A DNA stretch of 64,000 nt from Haliotis asinina (lineage: Eukaryota; Mollusca; Gastropoda; Lepetellida; Haliotidae), in NCBI RefSeq assembly GCF_037392515.1, contig NC_090292.1, positions 46,861,747 through 46,925,746 of the forward strand. The letters run 5' to 3'. Shown in pieces: positions 27,988 through 48,645 of this stretch (the stretch's first letter is position 1; each line of letters opens with the position of its first letter). The notes under the pieces were generated by a model that saw only the letters and a list, made by a program, of their open reading frames with translations, searched no databases and had not been told where the DNA came from. A program made the position numbers and the translations under genes.

Positions 27988-28009
27988 CACGCTTTTTGAG
28001 GTCAGACAC

Positions 28010-28400: not shown

Positions 28401-28512
28401 TAGTATGTTCAAGATATCTAATTAACAGACTGGAAAGTTTCTGAGTTCAGCGGAAAACAACTCAGGGAACAACAATCGAAAAAAACCAAACAAGCAAGCA
28501 GAAAAGAAAACA

Positions 28513-28942: not shown

Positions 28943-29690
28943 CGTGGCTGGATCCTCAAAGGGGTTGAAGTATTGCAAACTATTGTCCTCCTGAGAGAGT
29001 ACGTAAGTCCCAAATCTCAGCACATGTATGTATGTATGTATGTATGTATGTATGTATGTATGTATGTATGTATGTATGTATGTATGTATGTATGTATGTA
29101 TGTATGTATGTATGTATGTATGTATGTGTATGTGTGTGTGTTTGTGTGTGTGTGTTTGTGTTTGTGTGTGTGTGTTTGTGTGTGTGTATGTGTGTGTGTA
29201 TGTATGTGTTTGTGTGTGTGTATGTTTGTGTGTCTCTGTGTGTGTATGTATGTAATAATGTGTGTGTGTGTTTGTGTGTGTATGTGTTTGTGTGTGTGTG
29301 TTTGTGTGTGTATGTGTTTGTGTGTGTGTATGTGTTTGTGTGTGTGTATGTGTTTGTGTGTATGTTTGTGTGTCTCTGTGTGTGTATGTATGTAATAATG
29401 TGTGTGTGTGTTTGTGTGTGTGTGTATGTGTTTGTGTGTGTGTATGTTTGTGTGTCTCTGTGTGTGTATGTATGTAATAATGTGTGTGTGTGTGTTTGTG
29501 TGTGTGTGTATGTTTGTGTGTGTGTGTATGTGTTTGTGTATGTTTGTGTGTCTCTGTGTGTGTATGTATGTAATAATGTGTGTGTGTGTGTGTGTGTGTG
29601 TGTTATAAACACGTATCCTGCATTTATCACTCGTTTTAGTCATGATATGGCTGAAATATTGTCGATGTGAATTTAAATCGTAACTCCCGC
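28943..29690 (-). mobile_element. Repeat family 3 copy invaded by a microsatellite
   Basis: GATCCTCAAAGGGGTTGAAG (28,950) and ATGGCTGAAATATTGTCGAT (29,648) are the reverse of the two ends of family 3. Between them is a TATG/TGTG tract. Unit 1 lacks about 66 bases that unit 2 keeps next to the tract. Confidence 0.7.
29024..29604. repeat. (TATG)n and (TG)n tract
   Basis: About 100 bases of TATG followed by about 480 bases of imperfect TG with TATGTTTGTGTGTCTCTGTG blocks. All long frames here (MYVC, THTH repeats) are artefacts. Confidence 0.97.
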
Positions 29691-31280
29691 ACTCAAATAC
29701 AATTGTGCAAGGGTACCCGAAACTTTCCGCGCCAGGAAAGGTTTTGTACCGTCTTAACGACAGTAGAGTTGAGTCACGTGTCGCTATTGCAGTGTCGTTT
29801 TGTATGTTATCTATACAAGCAGTGTTTGTAGTCGTCCATTCGAGACAGCAGACAGAAGCCTGGCTTTATATAGCTGTGCATTGATCCAACAGGTATTTAC
29901 CCCTACTGCGTAGTCTTAGTGTCCCCGATTTCATACCAAGGAGCGGCAATGTTAAAACGTTGTCAACATAAACAAATACTGTAAGGAAAACATAATTGTC
30001 AGTCACTCAGTCTGTGTAACACAAAGTCAATGTCAGTCCCTTTGATGAGCAGCCCGCTTGATTTCATCTGAATAATCCAATCTGGCAGAACAGCCAGATA
30101 ATAACCTATTTCATATGTTTATTCCCAAAATAGTGATTTTCGATTTTTTCGTACTTTCTGTTATTGTCTATCGTGTCATGGTTAAATTTCTAAAGCTTGA
30201 AATAACGAGAAAATTTAGAGTTTTTAAAAGAAACTTGAAACAATGGGAAAATAAGCGAAATTGCGAGAATATATTCGAGAAATGTTCAAACTCTAAAATA
30301 GACAAATAATTGAAACAAGGAGAAATTATATCAAAGTGGCGTTATTAAGCTTTTGTTCAAAATTAGCTAACGTCCCGAAACAAACCCAATAATTCAGGTT
30401 GGTAGGAGAGTTGAATCAGGCTTTATGTCGCATTGGCATTATTCCCGCATCAATGACGAGATGAAGCCTGAGTTCATAAAAAATTGAAGTGCAGAGTACA
30501 AATGAGTTTTATTTTGAAAACACACATAATCAGTACATTTCATTTAGAATCAGAAAATGTCGTGTGTGTGTGTGTGTGTGTTCTTGAAACATTAACGCTA
30601 TAAAACAGTTAGAGCGTAGTTCCAAGTTTTCAACGTGACGTAACGCGGTCGGTCATCCATAATGCTATTCATTCGGCTGACGATCTGCTTATACCATTCT
30701 AAATTTAAACAGTCGTCACTAAAGTAGGTGGGACATAACAATAACACACGTGAACGTATTCACGCCCTGAAAGAGTCAGAGTTGTAAAGACGTCATTCGT
30801 GACTGGTAACGTTACACAGTAACGCGGACAACACGAAAAATAAATACACACTTAACATTCGATTAATCATGAAATGAGTGTTGTGAGTATAGGTGTATGT
30901 CTTTACCTACATATGGGGAGTCTACCTACATATGGGGCATTTACCAGTGAAAGTCACGCTGCCTGAAAGCGATGTCTATGTTGACATAATGGGTATGTAA
31001 ATGTATCCCTGTATTCTGTATGTATGTCTGTGTGTGTAGTCAGTGAAATGACAGAACGTAAATCTCAACAGTAAATTTAAACTTGCCACTTGTTTAGTCG
31101 TAGGATATGTGTGCTTTGTTTTATGGGAAGGTGTGTCTTCCTTTTAACCAGGTTAATTATCATTTAATTATCGAGTGTTTAAAATACACTGAACTGTTTG
31201 ATAAAGCTTAATTGACATGATTTGTAGATAAATATTTGTTAATGATTGGGAGTTTAAGTTAGAGACATATATTATTACTG
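29691..31280. other. Intronic or intergenic, no gene seen
   Basis: AT-rich single-copy DNA with a short TG run at 30,560. Kept in unit 2 with few changes. Confidence 0.45.
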
Positions 31281-31566
31281 GCTGTTTCCTCGAAGGAGGT
31301 TGAAGGATTGTAAAATCATATCATTACTATTATTATTATTGTAAAAATGAGTAAATCTAAATCTTACCAGGATTGTTAAAACGTAGTATTTACGTTATTT
31401 CTGTGATATTCCACTACTTTTTGCTGTCCTCCCATAACAGGTTTTTATACTTTAATTTTCATTGTAATATAAGTTAGATTGTTCTCGTCGCGATATACCT
31501 GAAATATTGCCGATATGACGCCAAACACTCACTCACTCACTAACTCACTCACTCACTCACTCACTC
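31281..31566 (-). mobile_element. Repeat family 3, partial, with (ACTC)n end
   Basis: CTCGAAGGAGGTTGAAGGAT (31,290) and CGCGATATACCTGAAATATT (31,490) are reversed family 3 motifs, followed by an ACTC run. Confidence 0.6.
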
Positions 31567-31620
31567 TGAGAGCCAGAGACGTGGTATGAGTTTATGACAG
31601 AAGTTTCACCCTTTTTTCAG

Positions 31621-31682
31621 ATGCCATACGTAGACACCCAGCTACTCCAATGACACACAGAACCAGGAAATGACAAGTGAAG
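31621..31682 (+). CDS. Alternative candidate start exon of Schlafen copy 1
   Basis: Acceptor CACCCTTTTTTCAG at 31,620 and a weak donor GAAG|GTATTC. ATG at 31,670 gives MTSE plus one base, which would join the core exon as MTSEESCGNCCSVIRG, in phase. Two earlier ATGs in the same stretch open only short frames. It is an alternative or a complement to the 28,010 exon, and the weak donor keeps confidence low. Confidence 0.25.
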
Positions 31683-31854
31683 GTATTCTTTCTTTGATGT
31701 CAACAGAAAATGCAAATACAAACATTCTTAACTTTTCCCCCAATTTAAAATGTTGGTCGAGTCCTACAAGAATGTTTGGACAGAACGGAGGAAGTTGAGG
31801 TTGTGGAGTTGAGGTTGTATATGAAGATGGTGAAGAGGTGAAGCTGTATATTGG

Positions 31855-32101
31855 GTGAGTGAGTTTAGTTTTACGCCGCACTCAGCAATCTTCCAGGCGG
31901 TCTGGAAATAATCGAGCCTGGACCAGACAACCAGTGATCAACAGCAGAGTTTCGATCTGCTCAATTGGGAACCAATGACATGCGTCAACCAAGTCAGCGA
32001 GCCTGACCACCTGACCCCTTTAGTCGCCTTTCACGACAAGCATAGTTGTATTTCATTGCAAGCATGGTTGCTGAAGGCCTATTCTATCCCGGACCTTCAC
32101 T
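31855..32101 (+). mobile_element. SINE family 1 copy
   Basis: GTGAGTGAGTTTAGTTTTAC to CTATCCCGGACCTTCACT. Unit 1 lacks about 13 bases (CTATACGACGGCG region) that unit 2 keeps. It contains a small insertion GTTGTATTTCATTGCAAGCA. Confidence 0.88.
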
Positions 32102-32955
32102 GGTCTAAGACTGTAGATGGAGAGGGTGAAGAGGTGAGGCTGTAGATGAATATTGTGAAGTGGTGAGGCTGTACATTAAAAAGTGAAGATGTAAGCCTGT
32201 TGATGGAGAATGTTAATAGGTGAGGTTGTAGAAAAAGAAGATGAAGTGGTGAGGATGTAGATGTAGATGTGAACTGGCGAAGCTGTAGATGGAGAATGTT
32301 AAGAGGAAGGCTGTAGATGAATACGGTGAAGTAGTGAGGCTGTAGATGAAGAAGGTGAAGTGGTGAGGCACTAAATGAGGAAAATGAGATGATGTTGAGT
32401 TTGTAAATGAGGCAGATGAGTTGATGGGGATGTGGATGAGGAAGGTAAGACTGTAGAGGAGGAAGTTGAAGTGGTGAAGCTTGATAATTTTTAAAGTTTC
32501 TCTTTGCCATCCTTTCCACGATCCTTGGGCCTGTCCTTAGTGAATTGTTGTTACTGTGAATACGTAAGGCGAAATATGATTCTGTGAAATGATGAAACTG
32601 TGGATCAGGAATGTGAAGTGGTAAGACTGCGAATGAGCAAGATGAAATGTTGAATCTGTGGATGAGGAAGGTGAAATATTGAGACTGTGGATGAGGAAGA
32701 TGAAATGTTGAAACTGTGGATGAAGAAGGTGAAGTGGTGAGGCTGCGGATGAGGAAGGCGAATTGGTGAGATTGCGGGTGAGGAAGGTGCAATGGTGAAA
32801 TTACGGATGAGGAAAGTGGAATGTTAAGATAGTGGATTAGGGAGATGAAATGTTGAATTTGTGGATGAAGAAGGTGAAGTGCTGAGACTGTGGATGAAGA
32901 AGGTGGAATGTTGAGACAGTGGATGAGGAAGGTGAAATGTTGAAACTGTGGATGT
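32102..32955. repeat. Degenerate GATGAAGAAGGTGAAGTGGTGAG minisatellite
   Basis: Imperfect units of about 28-30 bp such as GTGAGGCTGTAGATGAAGAA GG. The minus-strand frame of 231 codons (LPHPQSHQFAF type) is produced by the repeat. It lies in the inferred first Schlafen intron. Confidence 0.85.
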
Positions 32956-33010
32956 GGACGGTCAGTTATTTGGCACCGCCTTAGGTAAACAAAAATGCCA
33001 TGTTAATGCA

Positions 33011-33911
33011 CACTCATGTGCAAAAGAAACGTCCCCGAAATAAAAAACAAAACAAAGGTTACACGTGTCGTTTAAATGGCCATACGCGTGAATTAGGGTT
33101 TGGAGCAGCAGGAATGCTGAAAGTGGGAGTCACGTACTCGCATGCTGCAAGAATCATACAACGAATAGCTGGAAGACTGATGACTTGAGACAAACTGGCA
33201 GGACAGGGCAAAGAGCGGAAGACCAAGCGTCACAACCTCCCAGGAAGACCGCCATTTACGGGTGCTTCATCTGAGGAACATGTTTTAACAGCGGCGAAAA
33301 GTCGAGTCAGCACATGGACAGCAAGCGGTCATCTTCGCGCATATGGTATCCGTGCCTACCGAACTTCAAGGCCATGACGTTGACGCATAAACAACGACGT
33401 CGCAGTTATAGCAAGGAAATTGGGGTCGAGATTTTATGACAAATGAAATCAGGTTCTACATTAACAGACCTGATGGTCGGATATATGACTGAGGACCCGT
33501 GTTACCAACTAGAACGTCACACCCAAAAGCGTTTACCGCCTCCGTTGACCAGGAATGCGTTGATTTAGGTCCTGAAGGGGCAACGGCTACTGGTACCACA
33601 TCACGTGAGGAGACACCGTGTTCGCTCTGTGCGACGTCGTGTCCAGACATGCCTTAACGCCAGAGATGGTCACATGCGTTACTAGAGATTTTGGAACTTT
33701 TTATGCTACGTTGTGTATGTTGGCATGTGTCCAAACACCGAGCAATCAACCGTCATTTGCAAACAACCCTATAAATATATTGAATCAATCCTGATCTCTA
33801 TGACGACCTACCGAATTGTAAATTATAGGTTTTTGTTTCTTGATTTAAAGCCCCGAACATCCTTATTTGTTTTTTGAGAGAGAATGGGGACCTTTCTTTT
33901 GTACATGAGTG
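33011..33911 (+). mobile_element. Tc1-like DNA transposon, internally deleted, unit 1
   Basis: 26-bp inverted termini, CACTCATGTGCAAAAGAAAC GTCCCC at 33,011 and its reverse complement ending at 33,911, with two mismatches. Transposase remnants in different frames: GHTRELGFGAAGMLKVGVTY (first helix-turn-helix), SGRPSVTTSQEDRHLRVLHL (linker and GRPR-like region), RRRVQTCLNARDGHMRY and stop at 33,685 (the usual C-terminal end). The catalytic DDE centre is missing. A TA follows the right end; the left TA is not clear. Confidence 0.8.
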
Positions 33912-33957
33912 TATGGATTGACACTTTAAGATGGTTATGAGAAATGTTCTATTGCAG

Positions 33958-34996
33958 AAAGTTGTGGGAACTGCTGCTCAGTAATACGTGGAACAAACTT
34001 TCCAGAGGATCATCGTTTAAGTCTAGATGTAGATGTGACTGTGATAAATAATAAGAAGCAACAAGAAAGGAGAAAGACAACAACTAAAGAACTTCGGAAG
34101 AAAGTTTCCGCTTTACGAAACTCAACAGGCGGTGTTCTGTTTATACACATCCAGCGAATTGCCAAGACTGACAGATCGTTGCACCATCTTAATGAATACA
34201 TTGACCCAATTTTAGAAACATTTCTCCAAAGACATGAGCAGTTTGCTAATATCTATGAAAAGGTTTGGTTAAGCGACATTGAACCTGATCATGAACACGT
34301 ACATGAATTTGTGGTTCTAAAAGTTAAAGGTTCGTCTTTTCTTTGTACGACTGAATTCAATACCTCTGTGAATACTGATTTCAGCATTAAATCTGCAAAT
34401 GTAGATGTGATTCTGGACTTACTGAATTCAAGTGACATTTCACCTGGTAAACCTCACCTCGTGGGAGAAGGATTTATAAATGGTACGGCAAACAGTTCAT
34501 CATTTCAAGAAAGTAGATGCCTAGAGTTTAAACATTGGACGAAAGCTGACATACCACACCTTTGGCATGACTTAAAATTGAAGAATTATATGACTTCCTT
34601 CTCAAAGCTGCCAAAGGGTGGTTCAATCATATTTGGAATAGATGAAAACGAGGAAAAACAGCGATTATCAGCACATGATGGCTACGATTACATGAAACTA
34701 AAAGTGACTGGCTTGAATGTTTCCAGTGAAGAACTTGGAGACGTGCCCAAAAAACTAAAGGAGCTCATTGAGAAGGAAATTGTGATATCCCCCACCTCTC
34801 AGGACAATCAAAGAAAGTTACCCTGGGAATGTAAATTACATAGATTAGAGCGAGGAAAGTATATATTGGAGATCGCTGTTGGTTTCATGAATGGATGTGT
34901 GTTCCATGACTCTGGCCCGGAAGCATACAGAATAATAAATAACAGAATACAGGAACTAGATCTTGACACCTGGCTACAAAAGATCCAAAATGGACA
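33958..34996 (+). CDS. Schlafen-like protein, core-domain exon (copy 1)
   Basis: This exon encodes almost the whole Schlafen core, a horseshoe-shaped RNA-binding and tRNA/rRNA endonuclease fold known from vertebrate SLFN proteins. Numbering from the GTG valine at 34,035: ALRNSTGGVLFI (26-37) matches the first AlbA-like lobe (ALLNSGGGVI in SLFN11). ESRCLEFK (159-166), LPKGGSIIFGIDEN (192-205) and YRIINNRIQELDLDTWLQKI (298-317) match the second lobe and its C-terminal RP.xxEW-type strand. The nuclease triad is present as E159, E164 and D203 with spacing 5 and 39, close to SLFN13 (5 and 38). The His-x-Cys and Cys-Cys pairs of the vertebrate zinc site are not evident. The exon begins after TTCTATTGCAG at 33,957 and reads SCGNCCSVIRGTNFPEDHR before the core. 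There is no in-frame ATG before residue 186, so an upstream exon must supply the start. The donor is CA|GTAAGT, and the exon enters and leaves with split codons. Confidence 0.88.
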
Positions 34997-35227
34997 GTAA
35001 GTAAAAGTACCCATATATTATGACAGTTTATATCCTGGCGCTATGCATGAATACTACTTTGTTTAAGCATCATGTTAAGGCAACTCTACCACCACCACCA
35101 CCAACAACAAAACCGATGTAACTATATGCATGGATAATGCTTCGTTTAAGCATTATGGTAAGGCTAAAAAAGTTTCAGAATGTTACTGTGGAATTACATT
35201 CGCTAAAATGGAATACAATACATACTA

Positions 35228-35403
35228 CAGTGGTAGCTGTCTAAACCGGCACTCATTGGGACTGAAGGAATGATCCGGTTTAGACAACATGCCGGATTGC
35301 AGAGCTGTTGATAAAGGTACATGCGACGGGCGGGACTGAGATTTTATGCTGGTGTTGACAACTTGCCGGATTGGACAAATGCCGGTTTTGACAGCTCCCT
35401 CTG
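35228..35403 (+). mobile_element. Pogo-like MITE in Schlafen intron
   Basis: CAGTGGTAGCTGTCTAAACC to GGTTTTGACAGCTCCCTCTG with TA on both sides. Same length as the copy at 22,824 but several substitutions away. It lies between the core exon and the next exon. Confidence 0.82.
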
Positions 35404-35500
35404 TAGTAGCAAGTATTAGAGTTACTCCAAGCTATTGCTATCGTAAAGCTTTTTTTTCCAAATGTTTGACCAACATGAATTAGTTGGTAATGCTTTTCAG

Positions 35501-35625
35501 CAGTATATTTGATATTGTTTCAGACCCAAGTCTTGTAACGTGGCCCAGCAATGACCCTTTCCTTCCAAAGATGAGACACAAGGATGGATCCTTGAGAAAT
35601 ATTCGGGAATGTTTCATCAGCACAG
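35501..35625 (+). CDS. Schlafen-like gene copy 1, exon 2 after core exon
   Basis: The acceptor TGCTTTTCAG at 35,500 and donor CACAG|GTTTGT bound an open 125-bp exon reading HSIFDIVSDPSLVTWPSNDP and onward. It follows the core exon in phase (2+1) and ends with one base that joins GG of the next exon. The segment corresponds to the stretch after the core in vertebrate Schlafens (MEADPDLS in SLFN proteins), linking core and SWADL domain. The acceptor is a tandem CAGCAG, which allows loss of one serine. Confidence 0.78.
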
Positions 35626-35921
35626 GTTTGTTGTGGCCTTGTCGTCAGTCAAATATACTGACGGAAACAAATAAGGGAACACCACTTCATGGCAGTGTTC
35701 GTTTATTTATTCTCAGATTTCCTCCCACCGAACTATCCAAAGCTGGTGATGAAAACTGCAAACTATTAAAGAAACGATTGAATATTTCTGTGTTCCTGTA
35801 TTTGTTTAACTCAGCATATTTATGATAACTGAATGCATTTTACAGTATAGCCAGATATCGACATACATCTATCAAACGCATAAAGAGATACATGTTTTAA
35901 ATCATGAAATGCATTTATGAT

Positions 35922-36890
35922 AATAAATATGTGTATTATACTGAGTATATGGAGATAAATATGTGTATCATATATGGAGATAAATATGTGTATCATATGG
36001 AGTATATGGAAATAAATATGTGTATCATATATGGAGATAAATATGTGTATGAAATGGAGTATATGGAGATAAATATGTGTATGAAATGGAGTATATGGAG
36101 ATAAATATGTGTATCCTATGGAGTATATGGAGATAAATATGTGTATCCTATGGAGTATATGGAGATAAATATGTGTATCCTATAGAGTATATGGAGATAA
36201 ATATGTGTATCCTATGTAGTATATGGAGATAAATATGTTTATCCTATAGAGTATATGGAGATAAATATGTGTATGAAATGGAGTATATGGAGATAAATAT
36301 GTGTATCCTATGGAGTGTATGGAGATAAATATGTGCATCCTATGTAGTATATGGAGATAAATATATGTATTCTTTGGAGTATATGGAGATAAATGTATCA
36401 TATGGAGTATATGGAGATAAATATGTGTATCCTATATAGCATATGGAGATAAATATGTGTATCCTATGTAGTATATGGAGATAAATATGTGTATCCTATG
36501 GAGTATATGGAAATAAATATGTGTATGAAATGGAGTATATGGAGATAAATATGTGTATGAAATGGAGTATATGGAGATAAATATGTGTATCCTACAGAGT
36601 ATATGGAGATAAATATGTGTATCATATGGAGTATATGGAGAAAAATATGTGTATCATTTGGAGTATATGGAGATAAATATGTGTATCCTATGGAGTATAT
36701 GGAAATAAATATGTGTATGAAATGGAGTATATGGAGATAAATATGTGTATGAAATGGAGTATATGGAGATAAATATGTGTATCCTACAGAGTATATGGAG
36801 ATAAATATGTGTATCATATGGAGTATATGGAGAAAAATATGTGTATCATTTGGAGTATATGGAGATAAATATGTGTATGAAATGGAGTAT
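35922..36890. repeat. 32-bp tandem array, about 30 units
   Basis: Unit GAGTATATGGAGATAAATAT GTGTATCCTATG with variants. A six-unit block (192 bp) is itself repeated (36,495 and 36,687), showing higher-order growth. It ends 32 bases before the acceptor of the Schlafen linker exon. Confidence 0.95.
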
Positions 36891-36922
36891 CCACTTTCTA
36901 TGGTTACAGTTTGTTCTTCCAG

Positions 36923-37544
36923 GGCTTGCTGTCTGGCCACATTCCAAGTCATCTCTTTACCAGAAACGTCTCAGAGATCGACTGGACACGACATTCTACA
37001 ATCACAACGATACAGTCGGTTTACTGTACATGAGTGACTCGCTTGCAGAACTACTGAAAACAGAGAATATATCAGACGTTAAGATACCATCTGATCTTCT
37101 ATTTGAAGCTCTGTATGTGTCGTCAAGCCAGGCGTTGACGCTTCTGTGTGTCGTCGAACACAAACATGACAAAATGGAAGAGAAGCAGAATTACATTCTG
37201 CAACTGACAAGGAAAGTTACAAAGAGGGTTCGTCAGTTTACAGATGAGCACATCAGCTGCATATACGGCCTTCTTGACGGCGATGAACTTCAGGATGATG
37301 ACTCTTTTCATAAATGTTTATTGTGTATGGAGGAGAAGGCCCGTGCATACAATAACCCAGCCTCTTTGAAAATGACGCGACACAAATGTGAGAAAGTATT
37401 GAATGCCTTCATTGCTGCTGTTGGTACGAGGCAGGTGGTTCTTGATGAGAGGGAAGAAGAACTATGGCTCACGGAGGAAGAGTTCTATAAACGGATCAAA
37501 ACCACCGAAGGAACGCATGAGCGCACGGAGGAGGAGGTCATGAG
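36923..37544 (+). CDS. Schlafen-like gene copy 1, SWADL-type linker exon
   Basis: Acceptor TTGTTCTTCCAG at 36,922. The exon reads GLAVWPHSKSSLYQKRLRDRL and onward. Its order of motifs follows the vertebrate Schlafen linker: VGLLYMSDSLAELL (GILIFSQSWAVDLG in SLFN13), a DLLFEALYVSSSQALTLLCV strand region (VICDALLISQNNTPILYTIF), QNYILQLTRKVTKRVRQFT, and ARAYNNPASLKMTRHKCEKV (YPESYNFMTPQHMEALLQSL). The canonical SWADL residues are only partly kept. The frame stays open to a TAA at 37,579, but the downstream exons join in frame only if splicing uses ATGAG|GCAAGT at 37,544/37,545, a classic GC-donor consensus. Retention of that intron would end the protein at TFKR (37,578). Confidence 0.78.
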
Positions 37545-37703
37545 GCAAGTACACGTCCGATATCAAACGTTCAAGAGATAAATCTCAATGTCTCCTGTAA
37601 CGCCATGCAAAGCTGTATGACACGGCTACATAGCAGAGTCGGTATTTGAAATTTTCATACTTAACCAGCTTCCTACAGACATCATATATTGTTTGTAGTC
37701 GAA

Positions 37704-38065
37704 TAAAGTGAAATTAAGATTGCGAACCCTCATAACATTTCAAGTCTCAGAATGTTATTCAACTTAGGATAAAACTTGTTTAACAAGTGATAGTCTCAAA
37801 TCGCTCTATTTGTTTGTTTTTACAAGGGAGTATGCACATTAAATGAAACACCTGGAACATGTAGGTTTGGTCGAAGTTAACGGTCATCACTTACCGCACG
37901 TGGATTTGTTTCACTGTTCCAAGTACTGCGGTTCCCCCCTTGCAATACATAGCAATAACAACGGTTTTAAGCTCGTTTGTTGAACAACTTTTATCCTAAG
38001 TTGAATAAAAATTCTGAGGCTTAAATTTTCAGTCGGCAAGATTCGCAATCCTATTTTCACTTTAA
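37704..38065. repeat. Imperfect inverted repeat in Schlafen intron
   Basis: Arms of about 80 bases: AAAGTGAAATTAAGATTGCG through CAACTTAGGATAAAACTTG on the left, and ACTTTTATCCTAAGTTGAAT through GCAATCCTATTTTCACTTTA on the right, with roughly 75 percent match and a 200-base loop. It could be an old foldback or MITE element. Confidence 0.7.
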
Positions 38066-38203
38066 TTGGTTTATGTTTTTTGAAAGCGAAATTCATCGGT
38101 ACGTTTTCACTGCAGTCTGTAGATGGCAAACACATTTAAAAAGGGTCAGGACATACACACGTTTATATAACCCCATGAATTACATTGCCTATGATAAACT
38201 CAA

Positions 38204-38337
38204 GTGAGTGAGTGAGTGAGTTATTTAACGTAACATCGGCAATATTTCAGCCATATCGTGACGGGAGCATGTTTGATATTGAAATGAAATGTGCATACTT
38301 TATGAAAACCTGTCGTCAAAGGACAGTAAAATAACTA
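38204..38337 (+). mobile_element. Repeat family 3, 5' piece
   Basis: GAGTGAGTTATTTAACGTAA to GACAGTAAAATAACTAGT, then a second copy of the same element begins. Confidence 0.75.
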
Positions 38338-38600
38338 GTGAGTGAGTTAATATTTAACGTCACATCGGCAATATTTCAACCATATCGTGACGAGAACATG
38401 TTTGATATTGAAATGAAATATGTATATATTATATAAACCTGTCATCAAAGGGCCGCAAAACAACTAGAATATCACAGTCATGCCTAAACTACTCTGGAAA
38501 CTTAAAATTAGTAGTAATATTTGGACAAAGCAATATAAAATACGGGCTATACATCACACTCAACTGAAGGTAGATCACCATACCAGCTCAAGTCTTCTTG
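38338..38600 (+). mobile_element. Repeat family 3 copy
   Basis: GTGAGTTAATATTTAACGTC to GAAGGTAGATCACCATACCA, directly joined to the previous piece. Confidence 0.75.
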
Positions 38601-38787
38601 TAACATTGAATGACCACAACTATTTGAATGTATGAGGGAAATACGTGTGGATCTCTTACCTTGCTAATGCCCTTGTAGTTATTACTGTGTCTCGTGTGGC
38701 GGTTGTGGCAGCATTACTATATATTTCACAAACTCCCAGATAGAGTCATCGATATATATATGATGACTTCAATATTCATTTTTTCAG

Positions 38788-38851
38788 AACACTCACGGCG
38801 ACTGACACCAAGAGCAGTGTCAATGGAGACAACGTGAATACTAAGCTGAAC
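38788..38851 (+). CDS. Schlafen-like gene copy 1, short tail exon
   Basis: A 64-bp exon between ATTCATTTTTTCAG and GTAGGT. Only one frame is open, needing two bases from the previous exon, which the GC donor at 37,545 supplies. It reads TLTATDTKSSVNGDNVNTKL and ends on a codon boundary. It is low in complexity, polar and likely disordered. No counterpart in vertebrate Schlafens is recognised. Confidence 0.62.
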
Positions 38852-38903
38852 GTAGGTTCACTTTATAAATTATATGTGCATCGTCAATTGAAAAATTGTG
38901 TTC

Positions 38904-38908
<5 letters not shown>

Positions 38909-38974
<66 letters not shown>

Positions 38975-38986
38975 ATATATATATCC
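38909..38986. repeat. (TG)n / (TATG)n microsatellite
   Basis: TATATATATATG, about 38 bases of TG, then TATG repeats, in a Schlafen intron. Confidence 0.95.
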
Positions 38987-39017
38987 TATTTGTTTGTTAG
39001 TTTGCTTCTTTCTGCTT

Positions 39018-39205
39018 GTTGTTTAACGCCACAGTCAGCCATGTTCCCGCCAATATGACGGCAGTCTCTTACTCATTAAAGAAAAAGCAAACCAGTGATT
39101 GATATCATGAGCATCCACAACAGGCATCAACAAAGCAATAGGCCTGTCCCATCTTGTAGCGCAACCTACAGCAGGCAAGGGTTGTTGAAGAGTCACCCTC
39201 ATCTT
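39018..39205 (+). mobile_element. SINE family 1, strongly eroded
   Basis: TTTAACGCCACAGTCAGCCA, then CAGTGATTGATATCATGAGC, then GCAAGGGTTGTTGAAGAG. Confidence 0.55.
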
Positions 39206-39294
39206 CATGGATTGCATATAAATGTGAGTGACACCGTTTAGGCCATTGGAATGCCTAGCATCTGTAACGAAGTCTGTCTCATTTCATCTTTCAG

Positions 39295-39409
39295 CTGGTG
39301 GAAGAGAGACGAAAATATCGCACTGAATTTGAAATGGTGAATGCTCTACAGAAGAAAACTTCACGCCAACTGGCACGTCTTTATGAACTCAACTCTGAGA
39401 CTCAAGCAT
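39295..39409 (+). CDS. Schlafen-like gene copy 1, coiled-coil tail exon
   Basis: Acceptor TTCATCTTTCAG, donor GCAT|GTAAGA. It reads LVEERRKYRTEFEMVNALQK and on to RLYELNSETQA, a charged helical stretch suggestive of a short coiled coil. It enters in phase 0 from the 38,788 exon and leaves one base, which pairs with the two bases at the start of the 39,933 exon. This chain of compatible phases is the main support that these small exons belong to one gene. Confidence 0.65.
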
Positions 39410-39611
39410 GTAAGAATCCCTCAGTGATGTCACTTTTTGCCCTTTTGGAAACAGTTTGTTTCTTTCACCAAAATCCGTGGGTTCCTTACACTGACATCAT
39501 CAGAAAATTAGAAAGAAAACAATAGCACATAAACAATAAAAAAACCCAATAAATGACTATAATTTCCGCCTAAACCATTGAGTGCAGATAATTTCCGGAC
39601 AACATATTTAA

Positions 39612-39740
39612 TGGAGTGAGTTTGATTTTACGCCGCTTTTAGCAATATTCCATCAACAGCACGGCATCACACCAGAAATGGGCTTCAGACATTGTAGTTT
39701 TGTCGGGAATCGAACCCGGATCTTCTGTATGACGAATATC
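39612..39740 (-). mobile_element. tRNA-derived SINE family 2 copy
   Basis: Reverse-strand copy: ACGCCGCTTTTAGCAATATT, then GGGAATCGAACCCGGATCTT (intact B box), A-box end missing. Confidence 0.75.
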
Positions 39741-39932
39741 AATGGAATATTGACAAATGCCTTGTACAATTTTACTCACCATGAATGAGGCACTTGATGC
39801 GAAAAAAAGTTCTTTAGTGTCCTTGCAAAATTATGTTGCTTAAATTCTTATTTTGAACCTAATTTTAAGCCAGTAAACCATATGTATATGAATGACTAAT
39901 TCCCGCTGCCCGTTTTCATTTATTTTACCCAG

Positions 39933-40021
39933 ATATGCCTCTTCTGAAAGCACACCGTTCACAAAAGACCGCTCCACTGGGCACCGTGAAGGTGAAGACC
40001 ACAGACGCTGCTACTCAAACA
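39933..40021 (+). CDS. Schlafen-like gene copy 1, basic tail exon
   Basis: Acceptor TTTATTTTACCCAG, donor AACA|GTAGGC. In the phase set by the previous exon it reads YMPLLKAHRSQKTAPLGTVK and on to KTTDAATQT, rich in Lys and Thr. No known domain; probably disordered. It ends on a codon boundary. Confidence 0.6.
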
Positions 40022-40135
40022 GTAGGCGTTTCCAAAATTATTCATATCTCAAAAGAGATGACCTTTGTTGTGACCTTATGAAAGAAGGGCACCAGTGCCC
40101 TCACCTGAAACCCCGATAAGATCTGGCTTAGAATT

Positions 40136-40310
40136 AATCATCAGCAATCTACGCTTGTCCTAACAGATCGGGTGGCCAGGCAGTTGTGTAGACCAATGCT
40201 CGTGTTGTCGATCACTGTATTGTGTGGTCATTTGGACTCAAGTTATCAACAGACACCCACCATGTTACTAAAATATTGCTGGGGCGTGCGGCGTTAAACA
40301 GCAGTCAACC
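40136..40310 (-). mobile_element. SINE family 1, eroded reverse copy
   Basis: CATCAGCAATCTACGCTTGT through GCTCGTGTTGTCGATCACTG to GCTGGGGCGTGCGGCGTTAA. Confidence 0.7.
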
Positions 40311-40384
40311 AGCCTGCTATAATTCTTTCTTAAGTTTGTTTGCATTCAAATGTTCTGAAACCATGGACCCGTTAAGATCCCGGG

Positions 40385-40622
40385 GTAGATTAGGCCTTCA
40401 GCAATCCAAGCTTGGCGACTATGCTTGCCGTAAGAGGCGACTAACGGGATCGGTTGGTCAGGCTCCCTGACTCGGTTGACACATGCCATCGGTTCCCAAT
40501 CGCACAGATCGGTGCTCATGTTGTTGGTGACTGGATTGTTTCGTCCAGACTCGATTATTTACACACCGCCGCCATTGAGCTTGAATATTGCTGAGTGCGG
40601 CGTAAAACTAAACTCACTCACC
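40385..40622 (-). mobile_element. SINE family 1, full-length reverse copy
   Basis: CCTTCAGCAATCCAAGCTTG to GAGTGCGGCGTAAAACTAAA and CTCACTCACC, the complete element on the minus strand between two Schlafen tail exons. Confidence 0.88.
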
Positions 40623-40851
40623 CTGAAACCATGTACCCACTGATAAAACCTGCTGTCCGGAGTTAGGAGCAGCGTTGCTCCTGGATGGTATCCCTTTTCC
40701 ATTGTGAAATTGGTACAAAGTAAGCTGCTTGATCTTTTAAATGCTGAAAGTAGGATAAAGTAACGGGCAAAACTTATACACCACTCAAATCAGTTTCATG
40801 TGGATCAGACACACGAGAGCCTTATTTAACAACCTGGTGTCTTGTGTTCAG

Positions 40852-40905
40852 GTCGAGCCAAGGAAGAGTCGAAGGAAACAAATCCACGATGTTCAAGAAT
40901 ACAGG
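40852..40905 (+). CDS. Schlafen-like gene copy 1, Arg/Lys-rich tail exon
   Basis: A 54-bp exon between CTTGTGTTCAG and GGTAAGC (donor G|GTAAGC), phase 0 to phase 0. It encodes VEPRKSRRKQIHDVQEYR. The cluster PRKSRRK resembles a nuclear-localisation or nucleic-acid-binding basic patch (inference). Confidence 0.62.
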
Positions 40906-41502
40906 GTAAGCGCTTTATGATCGAGTGTGTTTCATTGCTGCTTTAAACTGTTAAGGCGTGTGTCAGCTCAATGTGTCAGATGCCAACTTTTTGTTGTGAA
41001 ATTAATGGGCAGACCAAATCTAACAGCTGAGGTTCTGAGCCCACATCTCTGGTTTCCTGAAGTTCTGAGCCCACATCTCTGGTTTACTGAAGCGATGAAA
41101 ACCTGCTCCCTTGCACATCTTCAGATGCCTTTGGCCAACATTGTCAGCTTTCATGACATGGAATGCTAATTTAATCCTGTAAATTTATATCAATTTTATT
41201 TTCAAGAGGCCAAATTGAGACTATTGTTTTAACATAACTGGGCATCTTAACTGACAAAATCACAGATAATAACAACGAATGATATGACAACAGGAAAATT
41301 AGTTCCACAATTTTCACAATTGAGGTGGAATGCCTGTATGGACATTTGCCCCTATATCCTGAAGCAAATGCCAAATACCGTCATATATGAATATAGTTTA
41401 ACCTTCTTACAAACCTTATTGATTTTTGAAATGATGCCGAAAGCATGTTATGTTTGGATGAGTGTTTAATGCCACAATAAGCAATATCCCAGCTGTGTGT
41501 GG

Positions 41503-41768
41503 GTGAGTGAGTTAATAATATTTAACTTCACATGTACATCGGCAATGTTTCATATCGTGATGAGAAGGCATTTGACATGAAAATAGAATTTTCGTACATT
41601 ATAACAAAAACCAAAACAAACAAACAAAATAACTGTTGACGAAGGGCAGTAAACCAACTTGAATATCACAACCAGAATTGAAAATAGGTTGAAAAGTTAA
41701 AACTGATAACAATATTTATACAATACAAATAAGCACAGGCTACAGATCGCCAACAACAATAGGTAGGT
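41503..41768 (+). mobile_element. Repeat family 3, eroded copy
   Basis: GTGAGTGAGTTAATAATATT, then ATCGGCAATGTTTCATATCG, then CAACAACAATAGGTAGG. Confidence 0.65.
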
Positions 41769-41782
41769 CTATCAAATAGGTC

Positions 41783-41925
41783 TGTAAGTAACCCCAGTGA
41801 TCAATCGACCTACGCAGCTGGAATATGATGACTTGCATCAACCATGTCAGCGAGTCATATGATCCCGTCGGTGGCATCTCTTGGAAAACGTGTTCCTGAG
41901 GGCGAATTCTAACACCGGTGTTCAC
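41783..41925 (+). mobile_element. SINE family 1, 3' piece
   Basis: CCCCAGTGATCAATCGACCT to GGGCGAATTCTAACACCGGT, eroded. Confidence 0.65.
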
Positions 41926-42298
41926 AGGTCAAATCACTGTGTAAAACGACAAGCTAGAAATATGATTCCAGTGAACACTGATTATTATTACAGATTAAGA
42001 TAGATATGTAGCAGAGAGGGTTCGGGTAAGGCACAGTCAGGCTGGTAAGGCTCATCATCAGCTCAGGGCCCTCGCCCCCTCTACACGCAGCCCAGACAGC
42101 GAATGGGACTTCTCCCAGGAAACACTGCCTAGACGAACCCACCAAGAACTTTCCGGAGAATATGGAGGCTTCCCAACACAGCAGCCTTCTGCATTACCCA
42201 GATTGAAAAGTTAGACATATGATTCTAATGAACACCGAATATTATTACTGCCGCTTTAAGCAATGAACTAATGAACACATTCTTATATTATTTTTCAG

Positions 42299-42388
42299 AG
42301 ATCAAAATCTGCACAATGCAAGAGATCACGCCCTCCAAGTGGACTCCAACCACGGAGCGAAGGCTGTCTATTGATACACGTGTATTAA
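42299..42388 (+). CDS. Schlafen-like gene copy 1, last coding exon
   Basis: Acceptor TTATATTATTTTTCAG at 42,298. Phase 0 reading gives RSKSAQCKRSRPPSGLQPRS and then EGCLLIHVY and TAA at 42,386-42,388. With the seven exons upstream this makes 2,198 coding bases: two bases completing a split codon plus exactly 732 codons (731 residues and stop). Another basic patch (CKRSRPP) follows the one in the previous exon. Where long vertebrate Schlafens have a helicase, this protein ends in an unrelated tail. Confidence 0.65.
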   Translation, partial: RSKSAQCKRSRPPSGLQPRSEGCLLIHVY

Positions 42389-42640
42389 CGTGTGTTCAGG
42401 TCATTTATAGTCTGTATAGTGTCCTCACAAATATGACATAAATACCTCCATGTATATATAAATCTTCATTCCTCTTGTTGACAATGTTAAAACACATCAC
42501 TATGAATAGCGATGAAAGAACTATGCATACCATTAGCCGTACAAACCCGGAGTATGAGCGAAGTTGAACATGTGCTTTCACCGGAAGCAGACGACTAGAA
42601 GGGAGGTCACTCTAAAATGATGTGTAACTAGTGAACTGGC

Positions 42641-42646
42641 AATAAA
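42641..42646 (+). terminator. Polyadenylation signal AATAAA of Schlafen copy 1
   Basis: AATAAA lies 253 bases after the Schlafen stop codon on the same strand. It is the first canonical signal downstream of the stop that I see, and is consistent with a 3' UTR of about 270 bases. Confidence 0.45.
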
Positions 42647-43258
42647 GTGAATGAAGCACTCGTAAAGGGTAGTAGTGTGCCCACCAGCGAGAGCTACAGC
42701 CAGGTCAGAATGGAACACAAAGGCATGCAATTAATGCATACCAAATAATTAAATGGCCCTATGCGGGGCACCACAGTCTACGTGAGCAATCTTGGAATAA
42801 TGGAATCGTCAGGAAGAGGAATATTGTATCTGAAGTAACGTAAAAATGTCAATCTGCAGTTTCAGTACTTTGAGTAATTTTGATGATGCTGACATACAAG
42901 ACGGATCTGCTCATCCCAGTAAGACCATTGCCTGGGTGGTCATCTAATGCAAAATCCCTGCATATGAAGTAAACACACAATGTGCAAACACTGATTTTCA
43001 CCTGCATTCTGTGTGCAGTATGAATGATCAATGTCAACACGAATGTTCGTATATTGTGTATACAATACAAAAAGAAGTTGACATCTATATTTTGGCTTGA
43101 ATATCAACGTGTACATGCCTCTCAAGAACCTCAGTATAAATCAAGTCTAGTTCGGTTCCCGTTTTTTGTGTTTTTTTTGTCTTTAGCTCTTCATAGTTGG
43201 TTGATGATGTGTGCTTTATTTCAATGTCTACATCTGAAGCTTGACAAAATCCCTTGTA

Positions 43259-43348
<90 letters not shown>
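43259..43348. repeat. (TG)n microsatellite, about 44 units
   Basis: Nearly pure TG run. Confidence 0.97.
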
Positions 43349-43349
<1 letters not shown>

Positions 43350-43746
43350 TACTTTTGGTCTGTGTTACATCCACCCAGTGATTGTTTATAGAGATACCTA
43401 GATAATGTATATTTTTCCCTTGGTGTATGTTACATCCATCCAGTTTTTGTTGATCTAGGTGCCTATATATACGTATGTTTTACTTTTGGTCTGTGTTACA
43501 TCCATCCAGTGATTTTTATTGAGGTACCTAGATAAATGCAGATTTTATTATTTATTTTATTCTGTGGTACATCCATCCAATGATTGTTTTATACGTACCT
43601 AGATACGTACCATGTATGTTTTACTGCTGATTCATATTACATCCATCTAGCTTTTGTTGATATAGGTGCCTAGATATAAGTATGTTTTACTTTTGATCTG
43701 TGTTAGAGAAATACCTAGATACATGTATATTTTACTTTTGGTCTGC
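43349..43746. repeat. Degenerate tandem array, about 70-bp unit
   Basis: Five to six imperfect copies of TTACTTTTGGTCTGTGTTAC, CATCCATCCAGTGATTGTT and TACCTAGATA, probably seeded beside the TG run. Confidence 0.85.
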
Positions 43747-44349
43747 AGTATTGACTCATGTATGCTTGACAACGGCACAACAGGAACGTCGCTCTCACGA
43801 ATTAAAGAAGATGTTATCCATTAAGTTTGTTCTATATATTGTACTTCCCAACTTCCAGAATGCCATTTAAAGAAGTAATCACGTTGCTGTCAAAATATCA
43901 TTATTTTATCAATTATTAGTATACGATTTTGTACGTTAGATAGCTTTTGGCCTGTCCATGTGACCTTGTTTAGCCTGTGTTATTTTATTTCTTTCTCTCC
44001 GAATATTTTAATTAAGACAAGATCATAGGAAAACATCAGCTTTATTTAGAATACCGTTACAAACATAATAAGCTCTGACACAGAAAGAAAAGCTAATAAT
44101 TTCGATACTTCCCTACTTCGGTCAAACCAGTTAGGAATGCCTTCAAATTTTGATGCCATAAACATGGTCTGATAGCCATCTGGTATTCGTTCGAAAACAC
44201 AACCTAGCTTTCATGGAAGAATTATTTCCAAATGGCTTTCCAGTATTGGCGAATGGACAAACTGTTGAACAAAACCTATAACCATGTATTGTATCAACTC
44301 TTCGTCCCGCTGAGAAGAGAAAGTTAAATACAAGACATTTATCTTGGTC

Positions 44350-44503
44350 TTATACTAAGTCATCTGCGATCATCCGCTGCTCTTCCTGCATAGGCTCAAA
44401 CTGCGTCTCAGGTGTGTCACGTGGAGGAAGGTTGGTGAAACGGGAGACAACTCCCACCATTAGGCAATCACTGGCGACATTTACTGTGGTGCCAAAACGA
44501 TCC
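44350..44503 (-). CDS. SLC1-family transporter, last exon
   Basis: Read on the minus strand from acceptor CCTTCCAG: DRFGTTVNVASDCLMVGVVS and a polar tail ending ADDLV and TAA. It matches TM8 of SLC1 carriers (DRFRTMVNVLGDALGAGIV). The Asp that holds the substrate amino group and the Asn and Asp of the sodium site are kept. The Arg that binds the acidic side chain in glutamate carriers is Gly. ASCT neutral amino acid carriers also lack this Arg (Thr or Cys), so a neutral or changed substrate is more likely than glutamate. The tail may be a PDZ ligand (inference). Confidence 0.85.
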
Positions 44504-44777
44504 CTGGAAGGACATGCTTAAATCAGCCGCAGATACCTTATGTTTTTACCAGAGCTCGTTTTGTTCTTTTCATTTATTACAATTTTTAGAAAAAAAGTTT
44601 CACTTAAGGATATAAACAGCAAGAGTAATAAAATATACGATTTAATAATAAATAAATAAATATTTAATAAATATACGATTTTTATCTCTCAGAGGATGAT
44701 GTCAAGCTCTTCTTCATACACAAAGGAACAAATGCTGGTATTTCACATCAGCCGAAGTGATTTTTATGAAAACTTAC

Positions 44778-44912
44778 ATCAGCCAGCCGATCGTAAGCAG
44801 CAAGGAGGCGCCTCGAACTGGGAGGCCAATCGCCCGTAGGACAAGCATCAGCATTGCCAGATCAGACGCAGGTATGCTGGCAGTTCCAATACTGACGAGG
44901 AACGCTGCTAAA
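44778..44912 (-). CDS. SLC1-family transporter, penultimate exon
   Basis: Bounded by ..CTATAG and AT|GTAAGT. It reads LAAFLVSIGTASIPASDLAM and on to LLLTIGWL, matching hairpin HP2 and the start of TM8 (TAASIGAAGIPQAGLV in EAATs). The glycine-rich AAGIP tip is TASIP here. The split codons with both neighbours restore C and M (L-M-D-R), so the three exons read through without a break. Confidence 0.85.
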
Positions 44913-45192
44913 CTATAGAACATAGAGACATTTGGTGTTTTTAGCTTGAACATTAGTTATAGCAGAAAACGATATATCGGAACACAGGCAAGTATGATAC
45001 TGTACTGGCGATACAGTATCACAGATTAAAAGGCACACACACGCACGCACGCACACACACACACGCACACACACATTATGGCATGCTTATAAAATCTTGT
45101 GTTTATATTTGGAGTGTTACTTATTCGTGAACAATGGGTGGGAATGTTATTGCTTGTGAAATGTGTTATGTTATGGACCTATTTTTTTAGTT

Positions 45193-46187
45193 CTCATATG
45201 TATGTATATCTATGTATATATCATATGTATGTATATCTATGTATATATCATATGTATGTATATCTATGTATATATCATATGTATGTATATCTATGTATAT
45301 ATCATATGTATGTATATCTATGTATATATCATAGGTATGTATATCTATGTATATATCATATGTATGTATATCTATGTATATATCATATGTATGTATATAT
45401 CATATGTATGTATATCTATGTATATATCATAGGTATGTATATCTGTGTATATATCATATGTATGTATATCTATGTATATATCATATGTATGTATATCTTT
45501 GTATATATCATATGTATGTATATCTATGTATATATCATATGTATGTATATCTATGTATATATCATATGTATGTATATCTGTGTATATATCATATGTATGT
45601 ATATATCATATGTATGTATATCTATGTATATATCATATGTATGTATATCTGTGTATATATCATATGTATGTATATCTATGTATATATCATAGGTATGTAT
45701 ATCTGTGTATATATCATATGTATGTATATCTATGTATATATCATATGTATGTATATCTGTGTATATATCATATGTATGTATATCTGTATATATCATATGT
45801 ATGTATATCTATGTATATATCATATGTATGTATATCTGTGTATATATCATATGTATGTATATATCATATGTATGTATATCTATGTATATATCATATGTAT
45901 GTATATCTGTGTATATATCATATGTATGTATATCTATGTATATATCATAGGTATGTATATCTGTGTATATATCATATGTATGTATATCTATGTATATATC
46001 ATATGTATGTATATCTGTGTATATATCATATGTATGTATATATCACATGTATGTATATCTATGTATATATCATATGTATGTATATCTGTGTATACATCAT
46101 ATGTATGTATATCTATGTATACATCATATGTATGTATATCTATGTATATATCATATGTATGTATATCTATGTATATATCATATGTAC
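45193..46187. repeat. 27-bp tandem array of about 1 kb in SLC1 intron
   Basis: Unit ATATGTATGTATATCTATGT ATATATC with shorter variants that skip part of the unit. It accounts for the 314- and 262-codon frames of type MYVYLCIYH, which are not genes. Confidence 0.96.
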
Positions 46188-46486
46188 ATCTGAGGCCGAA
46201 GAAAGGAAGGTCAGACAATGCACACCTACTTGACCTTGAACATTACTTCCAGCGAGAGCAGGAAAGAATACTTTTGAACACAGGCAATTAATAGACAAAG
46301 CAATTGTCAAAGCAATATGACAGACACAGAAATACAGACACACAAAATGAACATGATAGTATGCTTATTAGATGTCACTCCTTGTACCAAACATTGCTTA
46401 TGACAATGGAGCACGGTTTATCAGTCTGAATACAGATGTAATGCATGTGTGTGTTTAGTTTCACTCTCCATTACTCTTTCTCTTAC

Positions 46487-46681
46487 CAGATTATGAAGAA
46501 GTCACCAAACGACAGGGGTATTCCATTGTACTGTGCTATGAACACGGCCGCCACGACACCGTACACAGCTCCCCCGTCCATGTTTACAGTTGTACCAACT
46601 GGGAGGATGACCCTTGAGATCCTCTTGTCCATATGCAGCCTCTCCTCTACACATTCCATTGTTACCGGCAGTGTGGCAGCG
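46487..46681 (-). CDS. SLC1-family transporter, TM7 exon
   Basis: Bounded by ATTCTAG and TG|GTAAGA. It reads [20 protein letters not shown] and on through [20 protein letters not shown] to [18 protein letters not shown]. This is the serine-rich HP1 end (SSSATLP), the link and TM7 with the sodium-binding NMD motif (NMDGT in EAATs, NMDGG here). The exon before it, which should encode the rest of HP1 (TALATSS), is not found between 46,682 and 47,070, where repeat DNA runs up to the duplication junction. Only the last 160 or so residues of a carrier of about 500 are therefore present in this unit. Confidence 0.85.
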
Positions 46682-46699
46682 CTAGAATGTGAATGTATG

Positions 46700-46972
46700 T
46701 TTTAAGTATCTTCACATCGACAATATGTCACTCGTATCGTGACGAAAACAATTAATTTTATGCTTAGTACTTAATGGTAAATTCTGAAAACCTGTCAGTG
46801 ATCATGAAGGACAATAAAATAACTAGATGATCACAGATTCGAATGTAAGACTAGTAATGGGATCCAAAACAATTTAACTATTGGTGACAATACGATGTAA
46901 AAACAGGCCATATATTGCAAACAACGGGGGGGTAGATCACCATACTAGGGACCGTGGGGTATATGTTGTAAG
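46700..46972 (+). mobile_element. Repeat family 3 copy beside duplication junction
   Basis: CTTCACATCGACAATATGTC to GGGTAGATCACCATACTAGG. It ends about 100 bases before the junction at 47,071. Confidence 0.7.
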
Positions 46973-48645
46973 CAATCATTATTCCACTTATAGCTATGGA
47001 ACGTGGGACATGTTCACCTTGAGCTTGTGGCAAATGCTGTAAGCAGGGCAGGTAGTGATCTGAGGTATATGAACCAGTGGCTGTGCTGTATTAAATGCTA
47101 CCGATTATCAATAGTCATAAGAGCAAGGATTGTCAAGATATAGACGGTCTTGATTTGTTGAATGGTTGCAGCGTAGTAAATAGTCTGTCTCACAGCCTGT
47201 CCCTTCCTGCAATGCTGAAGTCCAGTGCTGCGATTCAAAATGTTAACAATATATATGCACCTCTCCGTCAGCATGTTAATCAGTGCAGCACTACTAACAT
47301 TGTGACGTAATCGCTCACTTGGGGACCGTGTCAAGAGCTGTTATTCTGATTCGACACTTTGTCACAGCGGATGTGTAACTGCGTCACGTGATGCAACCTC
47401 CTGTCATTGTTTTACCGAGGTGGAAGCTTTGTAAACAAATGGATTAGGTGTAGAAGCAATTTGCGGTAAAGCCTAATCCTGGTGTCATCTAAATCATCAT
47501 GTTGTGGTAATTAAAGATTTATTACACCACGGGCGATGAATGAATGAATGAATGAATGAATGAATGAATGAATAGTCGACCGATCTCATGTTCGACCATG
47601 TTCAAAGCGTTGAAATTTCAAAGTGATAACAGCAAGCACTAATGAAATCTACACTTTGATTGAAAGATAAAACGATTCGCTATACGTCTCAAATTACAAG
47701 TATATGACTCACACACAAGTGCCAAGAGCCAGTCAAAGGAGATAAAATAACCCTTTGGATATAAATTCTAACCATATCCCACTAGCAATTTGCAGACACG
47801 TGTGGAACTGAAAATGGCAATATACACGGCTCAGCAGTAGTGATGTATATTTCATCTCAATGATGCGTGTCTATATCACTCATCTGACAGCTATGGACAA
47901 CAGGTGCGAGGCGGGAAGCACGAGAAACATCCACCATGCTTCACGTGCTTCAGGTGAGACAACGGGAGAGTCAAGCTGGGTGCGTTTGGACAAATCCACT
48001 TGTGGTCGGAAACAGTGTTCAGCCCTGTAAAGTATACCTTCAGCAATATGTCAGCAACACGAACGGCAGGGCATAACTTCACAAATAATGTTTCACTGCA
48101 CAGGCGGCTGGTACCTAGAAATAAATATGGAGAGAGTCCATATTGGTTGACTATTGCTAAAAACGGCGTAAAACCATACCCACTCACTCACCTCATTTTG
48201 GAGTACCGAGAAAAATGACACACTCGCCATAACGCAGCACACCTCGTTCGTATCAATTATCGCCACGTGAACGGGTCTTGTCTGTTCTCTTGAGATTCTG
48301 TGATTATATCTCCGAGGTGAATTATTTTTCACGAATCATTGAACTGGACGGTGTATATTGTACACTGTCTCAAACACACAAAGACAATCCCAGCGGGCGC
48401 ACCCCATTCACAGATCTTTAAATAGGTGTCTATTGCCAATTAACCTTTTTATATGCTTTCACTGAATCGTCCTTTTTGGTGTATATTCCTGTGTAGGAGT
48501 TGTGCTCCTGTGAGATATGTGCGTTGTTTGTTTTGCTTGTGAGCTAGTTCATTGAGTGACTTCGTGCATGTGATTGACGTGCACTTTAAATGCATGGTCG
48601 ACAGCATATTGGGTGCGTGGATGGCTGGTTGGTTCTTTAACAGCG

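Follow-up and report, generated by a model that had tools for sequence, protein, structure and literature searches.

A molluscan Schlafen gene with a vertebrate-type core and linker, and the large family to which it belongs in Haliotis asinina

Schlafens are best known in mammals, where they cut transfer RNA (tRNA) and restrict viruses, and to our knowledge their study has been almost confined to that group. In its available text, one paper describes the family as limited to mammals (PMC7055508). What, then, is a Schlafen-like gene doing in a gastropod, and how is it built? The gene in question lies in a window of 64,000 nucleotides of Haliotis asinina (contig NC_090292.1, here G000:C13:46861747-46925746), the whole stretch of DNA to which positions below refer, and genome-wide searches covered 1.14 Gb in 159 contigs. 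An initial annotation had placed at 33958-42388 of the forward strand an eight-exon Schlafen with a SWADL-type linker and a basic tail in place of a helicase, and had interpreted it as a defence factor cleaving tRNA or ribosomal RNA (rRNA). Taken as a whole, that observation is partly confirmed and its interpretation partly supported. Our own reading, about evenly poised in our judgement, is that of a functional-looking Schlafen belonging to a large family, most likely a metal-dependent endoribonuclease and probably ending in a coil and a basic tail.

On sequence grounds the gene is a member of the Schlafen family. Exon 1 (33958..34996, +; 345 amino acids), which holds both lobes of the core, gives in Pfam the profile match that the initial annotation had proposed to look for, SLFN_AlbA_2 with an E-value of 5.2e-6 and 27.4 bits (cut-off 25.3); the whole spliced protein reaches 24.7 bits, slightly below that cut-off. 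Compared with the PDB by phmmer, exon 1 retrieves SLFN11 (7fex, 0.0022) and Schlafen 8 (5yd0, 0.13) and no others at E<=10, the N-lobe stretch aligned to 5yd0 being not significant by itself. Alignment A1 comprises 19 rows, the core exon of the window gene and 18 of 20 fetched paralogue loci, omitting L021 (stop in frame) and L024 (core protein identical to that of L023). With its profile, 16 PDB sequences are reached at E<=1: Schlafens account for 14 (SLFN11, the best at 2.3e-10, SLFN14, SLFN12, SLFN5 and Schlafen 8), and the remaining two score about 0.9. Positions 22-71 and 183-350 of A1 run collinear with SLFN11 residues 21-70 and 189-333, and the core lobes are thus in vertebrate order, as had been claimed. 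SLFN_AlbA_2 is matched at E<=0.01 by 10 of the 19 family members, and a search of viral contigs with the core returned a single pattern match and no relative.

Exon 3 (36923..37544, +) carries the SWADL-type linker, followed by the start of a region that continues in paralogues. The linker exon was found by tblastn in seven of the 20 paralogue loci, and a profile (A2) was built from these and exon 3 of the window gene. At E<=10 it retrieves six PDB sequences, all of them SLFN5, SLFN11 or SLFN12 (best 0.0036, others 0.07-0.57), which bears out the linker assignment; the strength of this evidence is its specificity for Schlafens and not any single score. In these matches SWAVDL of SLFN5 and SLFN11 falls on the SLAV.L of the family, a place occupied in the window gene by SLAELL (37039..37056, +). 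Pfam SLFN_GTPase-like is matched at E<=1 by six of the eight linker members, with 3.6e-4 as the best value. By eye, linker look-alikes were also noted in L013, L015, L023, L026 and L027. Core and linker form one gene, as read from their arrangement across the genome, since of 18 linker places 15 sit 1.2-7.3 kb downstream of a core with the same orientation, and none sits within 15 kb upstream of a core or on the opposite strand; for the other three, no core is listed within that distance.

The core exon matches 55 places genome-wide, the window gene and its tandem copy (see below) included and a few being two pieces of one gene; at 48 of them the frame is open over at least 340 amino acids with no stop within the match. 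Besides the 20 paralogue loci fetched, about 33 of these places were left without flanks. A tree of the 19 rows places the window gene in a group with L009, L010 and L011 (97/90), which L012 and L014 join next (100/99), the remaining 13 rows making up a second clade. Some fifty invertebrate Schlafens with a vertebrate-type core and linker show that this architecture is old.

Concerning the gene model, the eight-exon reading stays open at 33958-42388 (+) with consistent phases, encoding 730 amino acids plus a stop, just as had been proposed. Exon 1 starts on a phase-1 acceptor and has no methionine ahead of both catalytic glutamates; the model therefore lacks a 5' exon carrying the start codon, which was not located. 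Exon 2 (35504..35625, +, with 35501 as an alternative start) has an open frame only with an acceptor before 35501 or 35504, and an acceptor before 35524 was ruled out, as it yields stops. Exon 3 ends on a GC donor, so that the model requires a GC-AG intron.

The putative active site comprises E184 (34509..34511, +), E189 (34524..34526, +) and D228, the last followed by E229 (34641..34646, +), numbered as the 159/164/203 of the initial annotation plus 25. E184 is a glutamate in all 19 cores and lines up with the ES of SLFN11 and Schlafen 8. E189 is a glutamate in 11 and a glutamine in eight, and the third catalytic position is an aspartate only in the window gene and a glutamate in two other cores, which leaves the exact triad to the window gene alone; E229, K191 and K216 are invariant. 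The E/E/D triad that had been announced is present, its spacings being 5 and 44, against 5 and 43 for E205/E210/D248 of SLFN13 (PMC5862951). According to the available text of that study, the E205A and E210A mutants of SLFN13 have no activity and D248 is important, and E249A, at the neighbour corresponding to E229, behaved differently, which speaks against E229 simply taking over the third position (PMC5862951). Many paralogues may, from their residues, be altered or inactive nucleases, and these natural changes (glutamine for glutamate, a varied third residue) are ready-made tests of mechanism.

As regards metal sites, no conserved Cys or His is found in the 19 cores at the presumed place of the vertebrate CCCH zinc ligands, and the absence of the vertebrate zinc-site pairs that had been suspected for the window gene extends to the family. 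All 19 rows carry a CxxC where the core exon begins (C2 and C5; 33963..33974, +); as the rows were trimmed to begin there, the column is partly so by construction, and among the 20 paralogues the motif is absent only from L021. With the invariant H63 (A1 column 63; 34146-34148 in the window), the CxxC (A1 columns 2 and 5) could, as a guess, form a metal site replacing the vertebrate zinc finger.

What follows the linker differs among paralogues and raises the question of whether Schlafen cores also head larger receptors. Three loci on different chromosomes, L010, L015 and L017, carry nSTAND3 with many ankyrin repeats behind core and linker on the same strand, in frames of 863 amino acids (L010:5784-8372, +; 1.8e-17), 1396 amino acids (L015:1759-5946, -; 3.8e-16) and 1433 amino acids (L017:544-4842, -; 1.4e-12), lying 3.7, 2.2 and 3.3 kb after the core, respectively. 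L009, the inverted twin of L010, has a stop-bearing nSTAND relic 9.1 kb downstream; the two form an inverted Schlafen gene pair at G000:C11:11090629-11101432 and 11114033-11119832, with one downstream nSTAND intact and one broken. Searched genome-wide, the L015 and L017 nSTANDs each retrieve the other as top match (2.1e-16, next 1.5e-8; and 8.3e-17, next 6.9e-13), the pattern to be expected had core and nSTAND been inherited jointly. By chance, about 0.006 same-strand nSTAND neighbours would fall within 4 kb of 20 cores, an estimate from 173 nSTAND candidates, which are a first-look lower bound; several-fold more would leave the picture unchanged. Other frames behind linker frames are an ankyrin frame at L011 (L035:5488-6813, -; about 3.6 kb), an AIG1 GTPase frame at L012 (L036:6253-7335, -; about 3.8 kb) and, at L021, a frame with a weak NHL match just over the cut-off (4.1e-4; L034:7514-8443, -; about 0.7 kb). 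A further AIG1/GIMAP frame (G000:C9:33156183-33157109, -) was noted downstream of a core at C9:33157991-33158947 (-), on the same strand. At L014 no module was found in about 14 kb with the nSTAND query and by inspection of frames, and the nSTAND query, the only one used there, found none in the window or 30 kb beyond for the window gene.

Measured against an NLR-like (nucleotide-binding, leucine-rich repeat receptor-like) layout, in which effector, STAND NTPase and repeats share one protein, these three loci present adjacent same-strand frames, which suggests Schlafen-headed NLR-like receptors among the paralogues. Tentatively, and with slightly less than even confidence, core and linker would be the N-terminal effector on STAND-NTPase-ankyrin receptors (perhaps also with ankyrin, AIG1 or NHL parts), releasing a ribonuclease (RNase) on sensing infection, and the window gene would be a derived stand-alone member that lost the post-linker part, gained a basic tail and alone of 19 carries the exact vertebrate triad. 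Close to an even prospect, too, is that the nSTAND-ankyrin, ankyrin, AIG1 and NHL frames are separate neighbour genes and no part of Schlafen proteins. The nSTAND frames of L015 and L017 carry their own methionine before the P-loop, tests of splice phase between linker exons and modules are weak, some pairs being compatible, and in a genome search with PF20720 none of the best 22 scored places of the 173 candidates adjoins a core. The AIG1 frames behind both Schlafen cores sit in ordinary AIG1 clusters (on C13 and C9), and there the frame may be a cluster neighbour rather than a fused module. Against separate genes stand the occurrence on three chromosomes, always on the same strand and 2.2-3.7 kb after the core, the reciprocity of the L015 and L017 nSTANDs, and the L010 frame, which has no methionine before its P-loop. 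Among the titles and abstract starts listed in a literature search there was no Schlafen of an invertebrate fused to either a STAND NTPase or ankyrin repeats, one query being uninformative on absence, as its listed matches were free of the word Schlafen. Should the receptors be real, an RNase effector would be wired to an NLR-type sensor in animals, and bacterial suicide RNases would be linked to animal immunity in a directly testable way.

Turning back to the window gene, where does its protein end? The tail is modelled, on the + strand, as exon 4 (38788..38851, identical in copy 2), exon 5 (39295..39409, a coil-like segment with one nonsynonymous change in copy 2), exon 6 (39933..40021, uncertain), exon 7 (40852..40905, with the basic patch PRKSRRK at 40858-40878) and exon 8 (42299..42388, uncertain, with the second patch CKRSRPP at 42317-42337 and the stop). 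Ranked by splice matrices, all five acceptors fall within the top 2% of 3657 AG sites; among the donors, those of exons 4, 5 and 7 rank in the best 5%, and exon 6 reaches only the best 11%. When exon chains were built from the donor of exon 3, the best chain outscored every one of 111 overlapping controls at exon penalties 0-3, but two of the 111 reached its score at penalty 4 and likewise at 5. The best chain consists of exons 4, 5 and 7, exon 6 entering only at penalties 0-1 with a different donor and exon 8, whose acceptor is good, never, as other terminal exons outscore it. This search replaced a first test with tight thresholds, which excluded some modelled exons by construction and whose score 3 of 81 controls reached. 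Of the C-terminus described initially as coil, basic patches and stop, exons 4, 5 and 7 thus have splice support, and exons 6 and 8 are poorly supported. Taken as a whole the tail has a net charge of +14; its basic residues show no clustering beyond that expected from composition, the observed value being reached in 1136 of 5000 shuffles.

An ending within exon 3 is possible, if somewhat doubtful: reading through the GC donor (37545..37581, +) meets an in-frame stop at 37579-37581, 37 bases past the donor, with AATAAA at 37702, and the protein would then consist of core and linker only, in the layout of SLFN12, the tail exons being chance or foreign. GC donors are rare, exon 8 is absent from the best chain, controls match it at the highest penalties, and a genome search for the tail hits 10 places, five per copy, i.e. 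only the window gene and its tandem copy. Yet this GC donor agrees with the consensus and is in phase with exon 4, and the ranks of the acceptors and the chain scores at penalties 0-3 also speak for the tail; a second AATAAA lies at 42641, past exon 8. We keep the coil and basic tail as probably belonging to the window gene.

Concerning the helicase, none is found by Pfam in the spliced protein, the downstream frames of the window having been read by eye only. In most paralogues exon 3 continues into a stretch whose alignment is collinear with the beginning of the helicase in SLFN5 and SLFN11, Walker A included, and in the window gene this continuation is cut short after LWLTEEEF. We infer only weakly that the window gene lost a helicase-like region, because the partial matches to these helicases lack significance by themselves (i-Evalues 32 and about 400) and Pfam finds no helicase family among the eight linker members. 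The architecture of its own that had been claimed in place of a helicase is only partly supported, as the tail is confined to the gene pair and a helicase-less SLFN12 is known.

The pair arises from a tandem repeat. The first unit spans 18761..47185 and contains the gene; 18761-35090 recurs at 47186-64000, and the repeat continues past the window to the equivalent of 47072, giving units of about 28.4-28.9 kb with one Schlafen gene in each. Exon 1 of copy 2 lies at 62868..63906 (+), with 6 differences in 1039 bases, and its other exons lie beyond the window. Over all eight exons copy 2 is open, with eight changed codons, six nonsynonymous and two synonymous, and the proportions of nonsynonymous and synonymous differences (pN and pS) are 0.0035 and 0.0042. 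A recent duplication and two alleles set in tandem by the assembly both fit. We regard doubled alleles as a possible but minority explanation. Between 19000 and 35000, 26 of 32 aligned 500-base steps differ by no more than 1.0%, within the allelic range, and pN about equals pS; but the assembly has chromosome-sized contigs, and the units also differ by insertions and deletions and by up to 3.6% in single steps.

How far, then, does an endoribonuclease of defence hold up as the function? Several points weigh against it. The copy comparison alone gives no sign of constraint; the family does not conserve D228 and has glutamine for the second glutamate in eight cores, so that catalysis need not be the common function of the family; the zinc site that SLFN13 needs for solubility, its mutants there being insoluble in the available account (PMC5862951), is missing in the window gene; and the window linker exon alone has no Pfam match and finds in the PDB two chance-level matches and no Schlafen. 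The unbroken eight-exon frame of copy 2 was counted for a functional gene. The available texts report that Schlafen genes rank with the most strongly induced ones in mussel gills after Vibrio (PMC7772429) and that Schlafen RNases take part in bacterial defence (PMC12839542), and both support the reading as a defence endoribonuclease. A Schlafen without nuclease activity, which binds RNA or DNA or partners other Schlafens, would accord with a third catalytic position that varies in 18 of the 19 cores, a second glutamate missing in eight, the missing zinc ligands and a third-residue spacing one off from SLFN13, but the window gene carries all three triad residues and we consider this alternative unlikely.

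In the endoribonuclease reading, the window protein would be a metal-dependent enzyme cutting tRNA or rRNA, which would stop translation in infected or stressed cells, and the basic tail, if real, could help the protein to bind RNA or the ribosome, or to enter the nucleus. The core, the linker, the triad and the union of core and linker can be read from the letters themselves; RNase activity, substrate and defence role of this gene we infer, and family membership makes tRNA or rRNA cleavage and a role in defence plausible.

Among known systems, the nearest in layout is vertebrate SLFN12 (group II), described as core plus SWADL linker without a helicase (PMC8285493). The window gene shares with it the core, an E/E/D site, a SWADL-type linker and the lack of a helicase, but similarity is about 30% or less, the vertebrate zinc ligands are absent, and an N-terminal CxxC and a possible coil and basic tail are present. 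SLFN13 and SLFN11 (group III, cutting tRNA and rRNA; PMC5862951, as far as its available text goes) resemble it in best core matches and triad spacing, but bear a helicase and a zinc site, and the third residue is one position further in the window gene. Prokaryotic Schlafen RNases, linked to BREX and other defence systems, likewise combine a Schlafen RNase effector with regulatory domains; unlike the window gene they are described as fused to a minimal histidine kinase and a winged helix-turn-helix domain, and the available part of that paper makes no mention of a SWADL linker (PMC12839542). Comparable to the nSTAND-ankyrin paralogues are the animal DZIP3/HEPN-STAND proteins expanded in oyster, with an RNase-type domain, lineage-specific expansion and ankyrin and NACHT partners in the available description (PMC3710099), although their nuclease fold is HEPN.

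Some further features of the window deserve mention. Minisatellite arrays occupy 35904-36890, in the intron between exons 2 and 3, and 45194-46186, in the other half of the duplicated unit. Each copy has, ahead of exon 1, a stretch that by eye resembles a decayed transposase (33060-33750 and about 61930-62508), of which two second-copy frames gave no Pfam match. Rfam gave no match across the window, and Pfam none above cut-off on ten other frames in it. Finally, a frame of 101 amino acids at 16362-16667 (-), likewise without a Pfam match above cut-off, has a charged N-terminus and one membrane-like stretch, and may represent exon 1 of a membrane protein gene.

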